Assembly: GCA_007115995.1 (NCBI GenBank)
Contig: SKJI01000036.1
Location: 1-32,119 of the forward strand
Direction: 5' to 3'
DNA length: 32,119 bases
Source: a candidate division SR1 bacterium
GTDB lineage: Bacteria > Patescibacteriota > Gracilibacteria > Absconditabacterales > Absconditicoccaceae
A model generated the notes under the pieces. It had not been told where the DNA came from. It saw only the letters and a program-made list of their open reading frames with translations, and did not search any database. How positions within the stretch are numbered: position 1 is the first letter of the stretch; each line of letters begins with the position of its first letter. This document shows positions 251 to 31,570 of the stretch, one piece after another. The position numbers and the translations under genes were made by a program.

Positions 251-1927
251 ATGTATTCAAAACCTTCTAAAAATAATACAAGACCAATTATGATCATGCT
301 GATTATCTCATGGATAATTATTATATGATGAGTGGTATGGTTTGTATTATCATTACAGTCGTGATCTTCATCAGAAAGTACACAACAAACAGAATCAAGA
401 CGTTTTGTGTGAGAGCAAGTAATTGAGAGATGAACTCTTACACAAAGAGAATGATTATGATCTTATACACATAATTTTGTAACTGATGCAGGACTTACAT
501 TTTGAGCAAGAAGTACTGAATTAGATCTTTCACAATATCTCTGACCAGTCCAACTTAGATGAACTATTTCAACCATAGATTCATGATTACCTATTATCTT
601 AGTAACTGAAGTTGTAAGATCATCGTGAGTATGACTAGTTGATGATAGACAAATTACTTTACAGTGAAATAGTAGCTTATTTTATGATATTGATTTCTGA
701 ATTATGCTTGATCTTTGAGCAATGCAATGATATGAAGTCAAAAGAAGTAATGATACTCTTGTATTAGTTGATAGAGAAAATAATAATAACGAAGTATTCA
801 CTATTGAGTGATTTCCATGTAGAGTATGAGATCCTTTACAGGATTGTGTTGCATTAGAAGAAAGGTTTATTGCATTTAATAATGATTCTTTTACAAATAC
901 TCAATGAGTTGCGTTTTATAATCTTACTGAAACAACTACTTGGTTTGCATTTTATGAAGATATTACATGATACTCACTGCGTGCAACTGATCAAAGAAAT
1001 ATTACTACGTTTGCGTCATTATTTTGATTTATCAATAAAGATATTATTGAAACATTTATTCGTGAGAACTCACAAACATGTAGATCTGTAGAGTCTACTT
1101 TAGAAAGTATTGATACGTTTGATTATAATGATAGATGAAATTGAATTTATAGAATCACTGTGCAGTGAACTTCTTCAGAAGGTAGTATGGCAACTTGTGA
1201 GATTGCGTTGAGAATTTGAACACCTTTGACATTAGAACTCTTATCATATATAACAGATGATGAAACTGTTTCTGTGACACCTCCTGTAGAAGAAACAGTT
1301 GATGAGATTTCATGAGAACAAATTATTATTTGACCAGAACAAGGTCTTTGATCACAGCAACAAAATAATCAAGATAATCAACAAATATGAAATCAAGGAG
1401 ATAATCAAGATAATTGAGAAGAAGTAACTGATACACAGCATGAACAAGATGAAACACCAATAGTAGACTGATCTACTGATAACGAACATGATCAATCAGA
1501 TCTAGATGAGTTGTGAGAACTTCCTGATCCAATTGCTCCCCCATCATTATCAGTAGAAAGACCAGATTCATTTGATTGATGGTTACAGTATACTTCAATT
1601 AGATGATTTGTTATGTGGTTCTCAAGACAGTGAGTGAGTTATTTTTGAGAAGTTTTAGAAGAGGTAGAATCATTTGAACAGCCTTGAGTTATGTGTGATT
1701 ATAAAGTACATGTTACAACTTGGAATAATGCAGAAAATGTAGCAAGTGAACCGGATATTATCGTCTATGAGTGTACATGAGTAGCAATTGATACACTTCC
1801 TGAAAATACTCAATATGTATGATCAGCATCAGATAAACAATTTATTGCTCAATGGTTTACTAACAACCTTGAAACAATGGAAATATTTGTAGAAGATCTT
1901 CCAGAACTTATTGAAACTAATGGATAG
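251..1927 (+). CDS. Secreted or membrane-anchored surface protein, unknown function
   Basis: A 558-residue protein when TGA is read as glycine. ATG 251 is the first Met after an in-frame TAA at 212. A hydrophobic segment at residues 14-32 (IMIMLIISWIIII) follows a basic N-terminus and should act as signal peptide or anchor. Next comes a region with several Cys residues (PCRVG, LQDC, TCRS, ATCE) that looks beta-rich. A linker of roughly 100 residues rich in Asn, Gln, Asp and Glu then leads to a C-terminal domain with two more Cys. I recognise no family. The TAG stop directly abuts the ATG of the YidD-Fmt gene, so the two are probably co-transcribed. The reading frame is certain; the export prediction is an inference. 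Confidence 0.8.
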
Positions 1928-3202
1928 ATGAACTGGTCTATAAAGATTATCAAAAAAATTTGACAATGAATATATCACGTGTTTTCTTTTTTCAATAGAC
2001 TGCTTGCATTATTGATGCAATGACTGATATATATTTATCAGATAATTTTTTCACCAAGTGTTTGATTACTTGGGCATATACTTTGAAGAAATGTTTGTTG
2101 TCATACCCCACATTGTAGTCAGTTTGGTTTAGAAGTATTTAAGAGATACTGATTTATTCGTTGATTTCACTATACTATGGAGAGAGTGAGTTCTTGTACA
2201 TGATGAACAAAAAAGGTATATGATCCTGCACATATTCGTCTTGTGTATTTTAGTTGATCACCAATTTGAGTTCCATTTCTTCATGCACTTGTAGCTGATG
2301 ATCGTTTTGAGTTGATTTGAGTGGTAACACAACCAGCTGTACCCTATGGAAGGTGAATGAATTATCGTGATAATATTATTGCTCAAGAGGTTTCTGCATA
2401 TAATAAAAAAACAAATCGTTCAATACCAGTATATACACCATCTTCGTTAAAAACTACTCATAAAAAATATTGAGATGATGCACAAAGTTGCATATCCTGT
2501 TTGCAAGCGTTACAACCTGACATTATACTTGTTGTCGCTTATTGAAAGATTCTACCCCGTCAAGTTTTGGATATACCTATATTTGGTACAATTAACGTTC
2601 ATTGATCTCTCCTTCCTAAATTTCGTTGAGCTTCACCCTTGCAGTCAGTTTTTCTCGATGATCATGATGCAGCCTGATTTACTGTTATGAAAATGTCAGA
2701 ATGATTAGATGAGTGAGCTATATTATCGTCTCATCCTCTTCCAATTCAGTTTGATCGAACCGTTTTAACGTTGATCGAGCAACTCTCTTCCAAAGCTCCA
2801 AAGCAAACATTGGAGACAATATGGTCTTATTGTAAATGAAGAGTTGATCCAATCCCTCAGGATGATACAGAAGCTACATTCTGTTGAAAAATTGCTAAAG
2901 AAGAAGCAGAAATTGACTGATTTACTGACTCTTTGTCTGAAATATATAAAAAATATCAGGCATATGCTCTTTGGCCAAAAATTTATACTCATCTTTATAA
3001 TAAAATAGTTATTATTGAATCAATGATTCTTCATCAAGCAGTCTATTCAGCAACCCATCATTTACCATTATTTTTTCAAGAGAAATGATGATCAATAGTT
3101 CTTCATCAAGCAGTAAAATCACTGTATGTTAAACCTGCTTGAAAAAAATCAATGCACTGGGATGAGTTTATTAGATGATATGCAGATAAATCTAAAAAAT
3201 AA
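1928..3202 (+). CDS. fmt: YidD-methionyl-tRNA formyltransferase fusion
   Basis: A 424-residue protein. Residues 20-92 match YidD, the small membrane-associated factor that assists membrane protein insertion (FNRLLALLMQGLIYIYQ, FSPSVG, the Cys-rich CCHTPHCSQFG, and KRYGFIRGFHYTMERV). From about residue 100 to the end it is methionyl-tRNA formyltransferase, which formylates initiator Met-tRNA using 10-formyl-tetrahydrofolate. The active-site motif INVHGSLLPKFRGASPLQS supplies Asn223 and His225, and Asp261 lies in MSEGLDEG. A C-terminal OB-like domain follows (ATFCGKIAKEE, WPKIY). There is no stop between the parts and no Met between about residues 84 and 144, so the formyltransferase cannot start separately from an ATG. 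ATG 1928 directly follows the upstream stop. Fmt assignment is firm, YidD strong; I know of no described case of this fusion. Confidence 0.9.
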
Positions 3203-3218
3203 AGTTTGTCAGAGTAAT

Positions 3219-3256
3219 AAAAAAACCAATAAAAATAAAATTTTATTGGTTTTTTT
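3219..3256. terminator. Bidirectional intrinsic terminator
   Basis: The 16-base arms AAAAAAACCAATAAAA (3219-3234) and TTTTATTGGTTTTTTT (3241-3256) are perfect complements around a 6-base loop. The A and T runs let it act in both directions. It lies between the ends of two convergent genes, the YidD-Fmt fusion and the minus-strand thioredoxin gene. Confidence 0.85.
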
Positions 3257-3287
3257 AAGTTGATTATTTCAATTCAACTATCTTTTT

Positions 3288-7638: not shown

Positions 7639-8409
7639 TTATTCATCATTGAGCGATTTAAGTTGATCTCTCAATTGTGCAGCATCTTCAAATCTCCATT
7701 CGCTAATGGCCTGATCAAGCTGTTTTTTGAGATCTTCAGCAATCATTGCTTTTTCTTTTTTAGTCATACGTTTGAGTCTTTTTACTTTTCACTTTGTCAG
7801 TGATCCAAACTCTTGTAAAGGTTCATCAGACTTTACAATTTTGAGTTCTTTGATATTTGATTGAGCTTGTGTTGGTTTTATTCCATGTTCTTTATTGAAT
7901 GTATCTTGTATTGTTCTTCTACGATATGTTTCTCGTAATGATGCAAGGATACTTCATGTAAATTTATCAGCATACAGTGCAACTTCACTGTTTGGATTTC
8001 TTGCTGCTCTTCAAATATTTTGTATTAATGCTGTTGTTGATCTAAGAAATCATTCTTTGTCAGCATCAAGTATGCCGATAAATCACACTTCTGGTAGATC
8101 AATACCTTCTCTGAGAAGATTGACTCATACAAGGACATCTACTTCTCAGCTTTTGAGTTTTTGAATAATTTCCCAGCGATCTATTGTATCAATTTCACTA
8201 TGCAGATAGAATGTTTTAAATCATTTAGAGAGCATGAAATTTGTAATTTCTTCTGAAGATCTTTTGGTCATCGCTAATATCAAAACTCTCAATCATTTAT
8301 CGATTGTTTCTTGCGTTTTGTAGAGTAAGTGATCTATAAATGATTTCGCTTCAATTGATGCTTGCATATCTTTTTGCAGATAATCATTGAGTGCTTTTTG
8401 TGTGTTCAT
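7639..8409 (-). CDS. Stand-alone C-terminal half of UvrB
   Basis: A 256-residue protein matching only the second half of UvrB (about 660 residues). Residues 30-75 carry RVLILAMTKRSSEEITNF and FYLHSEIDTIDR. Helicase motif V follows (DVLVGVNLLREGIDLPEV), then ILDADKEGFLRS and motif VI (QNIGRAARNPNSEVALYAD). The UVR motif closes the protein (DQAISEWRFEDAAQLRDQL). The Walker A domain and beta-hairpin that bind ATP and damaged DNA are missing, and no N-terminal half exists in this window. The frame is intact, so this is not simple decay. It begins 7 bases after the TPR lipoprotein stop. It may partner an N-terminal half encoded elsewhere, or supply the UVR/helicase-2 module on its own. Confidence 0.9.
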
Positions 8410-8416
8410 GATGTCT

Positions 8417-9118
8417 TTAATAATAAAGTCCTTGTATTTGATTGATTTTTTGTTTTGTTTGTAGATGATTAGGGTCATGGCGAAGGAGTTGTTGTAAATA
8501 TTCCAAAGCTTTATTGTTGTTTCAAAGTTCTTTGTATGTTTTTCATAAATAAAACAATGCATTGATTGATTCAGGCTCTTGCTCTAATCATGTATAGAGA
8601 TATGGTAATGCAGTTTCATAATCACCAATATCATAATGGGTAATCCCTTGGAAGATATAAGCATCCGTAAATGAAGGATCTATACTAATAACTCTATCGA
8701 AGAGATCTAGCGCTTGACGTCAATAAAGTATAAAACCTGCTGTTCATGCTATTTTTTCGTGATAGCTGAGATCACTCAGTACTGTTGCTTTATTATAAAG
8801 TATGAGTGGGTCATTGGGTGATATGTTGAGTGCAGCATCAAAATAACGAATTGCACGAGTGAGTTCTCATAACTCTGCAACTATAACTCACATATTGAGC
8901 AATGCTTGCAGATTTGAAGGGTCTTGGATTATAGCTTGTTCAAAATACTCTTGTGCTTGTAGAAGATTTCCTTGTTCATAAGCTGTAATTCATAATTCTG
9001 TGAGTGAAACGATATTATTGTCTTCTATTGTTTCTTGTTGGTTTGAGAGACATCAAGGTAGAAAAAAAAGAGTCAAAAAAATTATTATATATACCGCTCT
9101 GAGAACAAATCTATGCAT
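8417..9118 (-). CDS. TPR-repeat lipoprotein
   Basis: A 233-residue protein. A basic, hydrophobic leader (RFVLRAVYIIIFLTLFF) ends in the lipobox LPGC, so Cys should be lipidated and the protein tethered outside the membrane. The rest is tetratricopeptide repeats: AYEQGNLLQAQEYFEQAI, DPSNLQALLNMGVIVAELG, a third starting ISPNDPLILYNKATVL, then YIFQGITHYDIGDYETALP and LGKTYKELGNNNKALEYLQ. TPRs form superhelical scaffolds for protein contacts; the partner is unknown. The glycine of the lipobox is a TGA codon. It lies between lysS (28-base gap) and the half-UvrB gene. Confidence 0.9.
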
Positions 9119-27589: not shown

Positions 27590-27616
27590 ATGTACGTTTT
27601 ATTTTGTTTTGTATGG

Positions 27617-28894
27617 ATGTTTATGAATTACGGTATTTTTGGATCACAACGCTTGATGGTGTTTGTTGTGTGTATAATTGTGGCGCTTATGGTGTATGCT
27701 CCAGCAGTATGAGCAGAAACGACGACGGCGTTGCAGTGGTGACAGCGTCTTGGGTTGACGCAGTATGATGATCTGGAGTCATTTAGATGAGACGATATGA
27801 TTACCAGAGGAGAAATTGCTAAGTTTTTTTCTGTGCTTGCAGTACATCTCTGATCGTGACGTCTAGATACATGATCGTGTTCATTTACTGATCTTGCTTG
27901 ATATGATCAAGGTTTGATCCCGTATATTGCTGATGTATGTAGGAGTGGATTGATGCGTGGTTCTGGATGAAATTTTTTGCCAAATGATCCCATAACCTGA
28001 GCAGAAGCGATTACGGTCTTGATGAGAATAAACCATGGACAACTAGATGAAACCGTTTCTCCATGGTGGATATGGTATGCATATTTATGACTGTATGAGC
28101 ACGTTCTCGATGTTGCTGATATGTTTGCTTTGGAGAACACAGTGAGTAGATCGACGGTTTTGCAGCGAATGTATAGACTTGCACAACCAGTCACACTGAG
28201 TAGTTCTTCTGATCAAGAGATATTGCACGATACTCCTCAGGCAGATCGTTTTTCTGTGACGAGAGTGGTTGATGGCGATACGATTATTATTGACTATCAC
28301 GGTGTCGAAGAAAGAGTCAGATTGATAGGAATTAATACACCAGAGTCTGTGCATCCGAGTAGATGAGTCGAACACTTTGGACCAGAGGCAAGCCAATTTA
28401 CTAGAGAGCTTATCGAAGGAACAATCGTCCGTATCGAGTTCGATGAGCAACAAAGAGATATGTATTGAAGACTGCTTGCATACGTCTGGCTTGATGAGAT
28501 CATGCTCAATGCACGTTTACTTGAGGTATGACTTGCCGCCGTCTCAACTCGACCACCAAATGTCCGTTACCTCGAACGTTTTATCGAGGAAGAACGTCGT
28601 GCACAACTCGCATGAGTATGAATGCGAGCACGTGATGACCTGCCTGCTTCTGACGCTTCTCTTGCTAGCGCTTCCTCCTCTCCTCCATCATCACAATCAT
28701 CTGTTCAATCAGTCAATATCAATACTGCGTCTCTTGATGAGCTCCAACGTATTCAACATATCAACCTCGAAAGAGCTCAAGAAATCATCACACTCAGACC
28801 GTTTGGGTCTGTCGGTGAACTGGTTCGTGTGAGATGAATTTGAGATGCAAGAGTGAGAGATATTATCACGCAGTGAGTTGCGGTGGTCGAGTAA
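27617..28894 (+). CDS. Secreted SLH-thermonuclease-HhH protein
   Basis: A 425-residue protein with an N-terminal signal peptide (LMVFVVCIIVALMVYAPAVGA). Residues about 45-200 resemble S-layer homology repeats (MITRGEIAKFF, SFTDLAGYDQGLIPYIADVC, LMRGSGGNFLPNDPITGAEA). Residues about 220-345 are a staphylococcal-type nuclease: VTRVVDGDTIIID, RVRLIGINTPESVHPSRGVEHFG, and RDMYGRLLAYVWL supply the Asp, Arg and second Arg of the active site. A Ser/Pro linker precedes a ComEA-like helix-hairpin-helix module (VNINTASLDELQRIQHINLE, VRGIGDARVRDII). The protein is likely held at the cell wall and cuts DNA outside the cell. It could serve nucleotide uptake or DNA processing. It has no Shine-Dalgarno sequence. 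Confidence 0.92.
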
Positions 28895-29974: not shown

Positions 29975-31570
29975 TTAATTATCTTCAATATATTTCATAG
30001 AATTTTTTATATATTCTTTTAAATTTTTATCAATTACGTATATATATGTTCAAAGAATTCAACGTGAAAGTAATGTTTTATAAATATTAATAATATAGAA
30101 AAAAAGTTCATCTTTATTAATTCAGCGTTTTCAATTCCTATCATGATAATTTTCTGGTCTAATAATAATTTTTTGCCTAATATTATCATATCAAATTTCG
30201 TTTCAAATTATTACTCATACATAATTTAGATCATATCCTTGGACTGTGTGAATACATCATACTTCATTAATTGCATTATTAGAGTTAATCCGATCTCATC
30301 ATATAACACTATTCCAGCAAAAACTTTCTGATTCTATTTTAATATCTATTATATTTCAGCTTTTATCTCACTTTGACTTCCAAGGCCATGCATATCACGC
30401 AACCATTCTTGATAATTTATATTTTTCTTCGCACATTAAGATGTTATTCTTAAAATCTCAGATATTATCAAATATTTTAAATTTATATTTTCATAATTCA
30501 TATTTCTTATTATTTTTTCATATAGATAAATTAAATAGATCATCTATAAAATCCAAATATCATTCACCTTCTCTTAGTCTCATTTGACTTTGCAATGAAT
30601 ATTCTTTTGCTTTCATTCTTCTAAACATACTTGCATCAATATCTGCTGGAAGGATTGACTGTCATTCATCATAGAGAAAAATTTGAAATTTAGATCTATA
30701 GTTTATCCAATTTAGTTGATTTCACTCATCTCAAAGAGATAACTTTTTATTTATATTATCAAAGGCCTGAAAGTTAGTGATATTTTTTCTTCTTTTAAGC
30801 CTATGTGCTTCATCAACAATCAATATATCATAACGTTTTTTAACAACGTCATGAGGTCATAGTACCATTGATGATGATAAATTTTTAATTTTTGAAAAAA
30901 TTTTTTTTATAGTTTTTCTTAGTCATGTCATTGGTATTACAATTCATATTTCTAGATCTTTAGAAAATAGTTGTTCTTTTAAAAATTTAACTAGATATAC
31001 TCATAAAATAGTTTTTCAAGTTCAAGGTTTTCAATGTATCAAGAATTGATTTACGTTAGTACTATGTTTCATATTATATACTATATCGTTAACAATACTT
31101 TTTTGCTCAGAGGTTAATGACTTATATGGAGAAAATTTAAATAAGTCTGAATTTTTCAAATCAAATAGAGTATGTTTTACGATTTTATTATTTAAAAAAT
31201 AATCCCATATTAATTCGAATTTTGCTTTATAATTTTTTCTATTATAGTATTCATGATTTTTTAATCCACCATTTGAATTCAGTAATAAATTTGATCAATC
31301 GGCTGCTAAATACTGAATAAGATCAGATTCAATGTCTAATGTTGCAGATTTATTTGATTCTGCATCGGTTATCACATAAATTTGTTTTAATAATGATTTA
31401 TTTTTATCATTCATATGTTGCTTACACCTATTATACACATTAATTGACTCTCACACATATGCTTCTTTATTATTTTTAAGAAAATATACTACTGGTCGAT
31501 CTTTTCAATAACGATAGACTTCTATATTTTTTAATCAGTTTTGATTAAAATCAAATCTTTTGATATCCAT
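29975..31570 (-). CDS. GIY-YIG/DUF2075 superfamily 1 ATPase
   Basis: A 531-residue protein. Residues 20-95 are a GIY-YIG nuclease-like domain: VVYFLKNNKEAYVGESINVYNRCKQH, read around the Tyr29 and Tyr38-Val-Gly signature, with an acidic Glu at about 81. Residues about 150-531 are a DUF2075-type P-loop ATPase of the helicase group: Walker A HGKPGTGKT (179-187), Walker B YDILIVDEAHRL, a later IFLYDEGQSILP motif, QSQMRLREG, HTVQGYDLNYVGVIIG, and LLSRG near the C-terminus. Such proteins recur in bacterial defence regions and accessory islands. The three P-loop glycines after Pro are largely TGA, so the gene is native to or adapted to code 25. It shares an operon with the next gene (17-base gap). 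Confidence 0.9.

Follow-up and report, generated by a model that had tools for sequence, protein, structure and literature searches.

The window, by which we mean the whole stretch of 32,119 nucleotides analysed, belongs to a 1.0-Mb genome that is 94.5% complete and is a draft in 50 contigs. On its forward strand lies a gene that joins YidD and methionyl-tRNA formyltransferase (Fmt) in one reading frame. The features of this gene and of the region following it are listed below.

1928..3202, forward strand: yidD-fmt fusion gene, 424 amino acids in code 25, ATG start, TAA stop
1931..2050, forward strand: predicted 40-residue amphipathic N-terminal helix (residues 2-41, from AlphaFold secondary structure)
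2015..2227, forward strand: YidD domain (residues 30-100; PF01809, 46.4 bits; TIGR00278, 40.3 bits)
2222..2239, forward strand: junction D99-P100-A-H-I-R, where the YidD end is joined directly to the first Fmt beta strand (residues 103-109)
2234..2809, forward strand: Fmt catalytic domain, Formyl_trans_N (residues 103-294; PF00551, 102.7 bits; Foldseek matches)
2594..2596, forward strand: catalytic Asn223, invariant
2600..2602, forward strand: catalytic His225, invariant
2708..2710, forward strand: catalytic Asp261, invariant
2888..3181, forward strand: Fmt C-terminal domain of the tRNA-binding type, Formyl_trans_C (residues 321-418; PF02911, 30.7 bits)
3218..3257, unstranded: 17-bp hairpin followed by a T-run

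The fusion of YidD with Fmt, proposed in the first-pass annotation, was borne out by the domain searches. The frame is open throughout all 424 residues in code 25, with neither a stop nor a frameshift at the junction, and the Pfam scores exceed the cut-offs for YidD (27 bits, E = 3 × 10-12), for Formyl_trans_N, which matches residues 128-294 (26.1 bits, E = 3 × 10-29), and for Formyl_trans_C (21.1 bits, E = 4 × 10-7). The source genome has a single YidD match and a single Formyl_trans_N match, both within this gene. The reported lack of Met near the junction was also correct, since no in-frame ATG is present between residues 84 and 144; GTG occurs at 87 and 106. An AlphaFold2 model of the protein, built with 32 family homologues, gave a pLDDT of 92.5 and a pTM of 0.87. 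The hairpin downstream (fold -15.5 kcal/mol, z = -5.5) stands between the fusion gene and a converging thioredoxin-like gene, and is likely their shared terminator.

The gene contains 27 TGA codons, which are read as Gly in the code-25 translation and account for 27 of the 31 glycines of the protein. When relatives were aligned at these positions, Gly was found in 564 of 943 cells (60%, versus 6% Gly overall), and 357 of the 564 were encoded by GGN codons. This result indicates that code 25 is right for the fusion gene, and the code itself points to the Absconditabacteria/Gracilibacteria. An artefact of assembly, frameshift or genetic code, which the draft state of the source genome might suggest, is ruled out by the coincidence of the TGA positions with conserved glycines and by the same architecture in 39 other genomes, three of them single-contig (G005, G008 and G026); we regard its probability as negligible.

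The two halves of the protein and their junction

The YidD half passes the TIGR00278 equivalog of NCBIfam marginally (cut-off 40 bits), and all relatives tested pass it with 47.9-63 bits. It carries the YidD signature Y37, Q38, S42, P43, C57xxxP61xC63S64, R86, C90 and D99-P100, in which the Cys, Pro, Ser and Arg residues and the Y/Q/S/P positions are invariant among 32 members and D99 is nearly so. The predicted N-terminal helix has an 18-residue hydrophobic moment of 0.70 and a net charge of +4, and further helices are modelled at residues 49-55 and 63-89. Thus the fusion shares with YidD (PF01809/TIGR00278) the signature residues, the helical make-up and the basic amphipathic N-terminus. Compared with free YidD, the N-terminal helix is longer, in most members the first Cys is preceded by a few additional residues, and the chain runs straight into Fmt instead of ending two residues past the DP motif.

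Intact fused YidD copies score approximately 42-66 bits, whereas the free YidDs with the highest scores in the phylum reach 80-101 bits. This divergence would suit a YidD part that had lost its insertion role and been repurposed as a docking module, serving Fmt stability or the binding of tRNA or ribosome; in addition, yidC adjoins atpD in the source genome, away from the fusion gene, and the function of YidD in general is poorly understood. Nevertheless, we consider such repurposing unlikely: all signature residues are kept and YidC is retained, the YidD equivalog cut-off is passed by the relatives tested, and the search of the family gave no other yidD.

The Fmt half is full-length. In a Foldseek search, the model matched the Fmt structures 4iqf (E = 1.2 × 10-29) and 2fmt (E = 1 × 10-26), and also 1fmt, and the sequence matches in PDB were all formyltransferase-type enzymes, the best being Fmts that cover residues 102-421. 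The score against the fmt equivalog TIGR00460 was 191.2 bits, below the cut-off of 201.5, and 5 of 7 relatives pass this cut-off, with a range of 160-226 bits. Asn223, His225 and Asp261, named as catalytic residues in the first-pass annotation, are correctly numbered and invariant in the 32 homologues, together with G226, S227, R233 and G234. With Fmt (TIGR00460; 4iqf and 2fmt) the fusion therefore shares complete N- and C-terminal domains, the Asn/His/Asp site and the SLLPxxRG motif, at 28-30% identity to the solved Fmts in the structural match. It differs in that the YidD domain stands where the start codon of Fmt itself would be, and in that some relatives carry a whole extra domain within one loop. 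ArnA, the bifunctional formyltransferase/decarboxylase, is likewise a protein of two domains, one of them of the Fmt type, but its partner domain and substrate are different and the score (92.9 versus a cut-off of 777) does not make the two orthologous.

Throughout the family the junction is free of linker and follows the pattern DP-xxY-K/R-VVFF. Of 27 free YidDs measured in the phylum, 22 end two residues beyond the DP motif, and most of the free Fmts in sister families begin with M-K/R-I, two or three residues before the same beta strand. A natural YidD end is thus followed by a natural Fmt start, indicating that two natural chains were joined end to end. Loss of the stop codon between abutting yidD and fmt genes would produce such a protein. 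The pTM of the model hints that the YidD part may have a defined position on Fmt.

The single frame might still give rise to two products, through a second start of translation close to the junction or through proteolysis, so that cells would contain no fused chain. In its favour, 29 of the 40 family genomes with the fusion have an ATG at some position within residues 86-110, but these codons do not share one position and are absent from the other 11, the source genome included. We accordingly rejected the alternative of two genes separated by a conserved internal start: no position-conserved start codon was found at the junction in the 40 genomes, and no free yidD was found in the family. A search for Shine-Dalgarno motifs gave none at the main starts of the fusion genes, and the motif is therefore uninformative about internal initiation. 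The model shows a short junction, ordered with confidence (block pLDDT 86-97), which does not resemble an exposed site of processing. We judge the two-product explanation to be highly improbable.

Several relatives carry in-frame insertions of whole domains at one Fmt loop, near residues 155-170 of the source protein. The insert is an alpha/beta hydrolase of approximately 200 residues (Ser_hydrolase/Abhydrolase) in G007, G016, G030, G033 and G340, and, at the end of a contig, in G001; a DUF559 nuclease-like domain in G012; and a stretch of approximately 90 residues without a Pfam match in G027 (loci L026, L027, L028, L029, L030, L071 and L083 for G012, G007, G030, G033, G027, G016 and G340, respectively). 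The DUF559 insert lies between the arms of a 42-nt inverted repeat with 76% complementarity (L156:8804-9296), an arrangement that recalls the in-frame insertion of a small mobile element bounded by a palindrome. In the Fmt tree the nearest relatives of these proteins are without inserts, indicating repeated gain or loss. Hydrolase homologues of standalone size occur elsewhere in the family, for example in G024 and G342. An AlphaFold model of the G033 protein (pLDDT 81) keeps the Fmt and YidD elements around the hydrolase-like insert.

Distribution and origin of the fusion

We surveyed 49 genomes of the family, from 22 genera, of which 26 were of high quality (completeness of at least 90% and contamination of at most 5%). 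The fusion forms one continuous frame in 40 of the 49, as the search of related genomes suggested by the first-pass annotation was meant to reveal; the loci of G016, G023 and G340 among them are cut by contig or locus ends. All 26 high-quality genomes have the fusion, a YidD match and a Formyl_trans_N match. The other nine genomes comprise two with contig-end fragments (G001 and G002), four with only unresolved Formyl_trans_N matches (G015, G034, G341 and G346) and three in which neither YidD nor Formyl_trans_N was found (G019, G028 and G345). A free yidD above the cut-off, the other thing to look for in relatives, was found in none of the 49, including these nine. In G019 and G028, both of genus g20 and 88-89% complete, peptide deformylase is present, as is the initiator tRNA arm, and YidC was found in G019 only; a joint loss of the fused gene in these two is possible.

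A profile search of 353 genomes of the class and 380 of the phylum, the latter an even sample across it, gave no full-length protein with YidD and Fmt outside the family among the matches listed. Elsewhere, among the same matches, those to Fmt begin near the Fmt boundary or run slightly upstream through stops or unrelated sequence. Matches in G354 and G376 seemed to reach upstream of Fmt, and the opened loci proved to be without YidD. In the sister families f145, f14 and f3, no yidD was found within approximately 9 kb of fmt, or less where the contig ends sooner; fmt is standalone in the loci opened there, and an intermediate stage with yidD near fmt was therefore discarded. We found no earlier description of the fusion in the open-access literature, in agreement with the first-pass annotation, and it is apparently undescribed so far.

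In a tree of the Fmt parts, all 38 family rows fell into one clade with support of 100/99, which fits a single origin of the fusion. The 32 homologues have approximately 40% overall identity to the source protein while keeping the invariant residues of YidD and Fmt, indicating that both halves are under purifying selection. The genes neighbouring the fusion were not conserved among 13 genomes compared; the fusion thus persists through rearrangement and is no accident of an operon.

The main competing explanation, to which we assign somewhat less than an even chance, accepts the fusion as real and takes it to be functionally neutral: a stop codon was lost, both parts work as usual, and only a fixed 1:1 expression was added. 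It is consistent with the junction, where no linker has evolved between the natural ends, and with the single origin; moreover, the tRNA on which Fmt acts is diffusible, so that the location of formylation need not matter. Against this, none of the 40 genomes, which come from many genera, shows the gene split again, in spite of the scrambled gene order and approximately 60% divergence, and this persistence argues mildly against neutrality.

Formylation and a possible membrane location

The partners of both halves are present in the family. YidC, peptide deformylase and FolD were each found in 26 of 26 high-quality genomes, and folD lies near the fusion gene in a few family genomes. An initiator-type anticodon arm, GGGCTCATAACCC, is present in 40 of the 49 genomes. 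In the initiator tRNA-Met of the source genome, the anticodon stem has three G:C pairs and the acceptor end a weak U1:A72 pair. A weak 1:72 pair is of the kind that Fmt is thought to accept. From the presence of deformylase, FolD, initiator tRNA and YidC, formylation looks functional and intact in the family as far as gene content tells. In E. coli, cross-linking and transport experiments in vitro have linked YidD to membrane insertion (Yu 2011, as cited in PMC8082313).

The reading we favour, and hold to be quite probable, is that of a true two-domain YidD-Fmt protein, in which yidD and fmt were joined end-to-end once, in the ancestor of the family, and the fused gene replaced both separate genes. 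The C-terminal part would act as an ordinary Fmt and formylate Met-tRNA(fMet) with 10-formyl-THF. The amphipathic YidD part may lie against the inner membrane face close to YidC/Sec and keep its accessory role there. Formylation of the initiator tRNA would then be a peripheral-membrane activity in cells of this family. That Fmt is held at the membrane by the YidD part is suggested by the identity of that part, by the long amphipathic N-terminal helix and by the presence of YidC.

Formylation may further be coupled to membrane insertion. A strong form of this idea, that the initiator is formylated where membrane insertion takes place and that this matters for insertion, seems doubtful to us. 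If true, freshly formylated initiator, giving an uncharged N-terminus, would be supplied to the ribosomes making YidC/Sec-dependent proteins, and the chemistry of the start and membrane insertion would be physically coupled in this lineage.

YidD and Fmt are widespread bacterial proteins for which we know of no link, and here they are united family-wide. Through the fusion YidD, a protein of still vague role, acquires a fixed partner that belongs to translation initiation, and the spatial organisation of formylation and any effect of the N-terminal formyl group on membrane insertion become open to test. It is also a clean shared derived trait and a useful taxonomic marker for one family of very small, recoded bacteria.

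Other genes in the window

An ORF of 558 residues without a Pfam match (251-1927, forward strand) ends directly before the ATG of the fusion gene and is possibly co-transcribed with it; it is not conserved beside the fusion in relatives. On the reverse strand, an ORF at 7639-8562 corresponds to the C-terminal half of UvrB only (Helicase_C, UvrB and UVR motif), and the N-terminal half was not read just upstream in the same frame. At 27590-28894 (forward strand), an S-layer homology domain, a staphylococcal-nuclease domain and a helix-hairpin-helix motif are combined in one protein, possibly a cell-surface nuclease judging from its domains. At 29975-31570 (reverse strand), a GIY-YIG nuclease domain is joined to a helicase of the Schlafen group 3 type.
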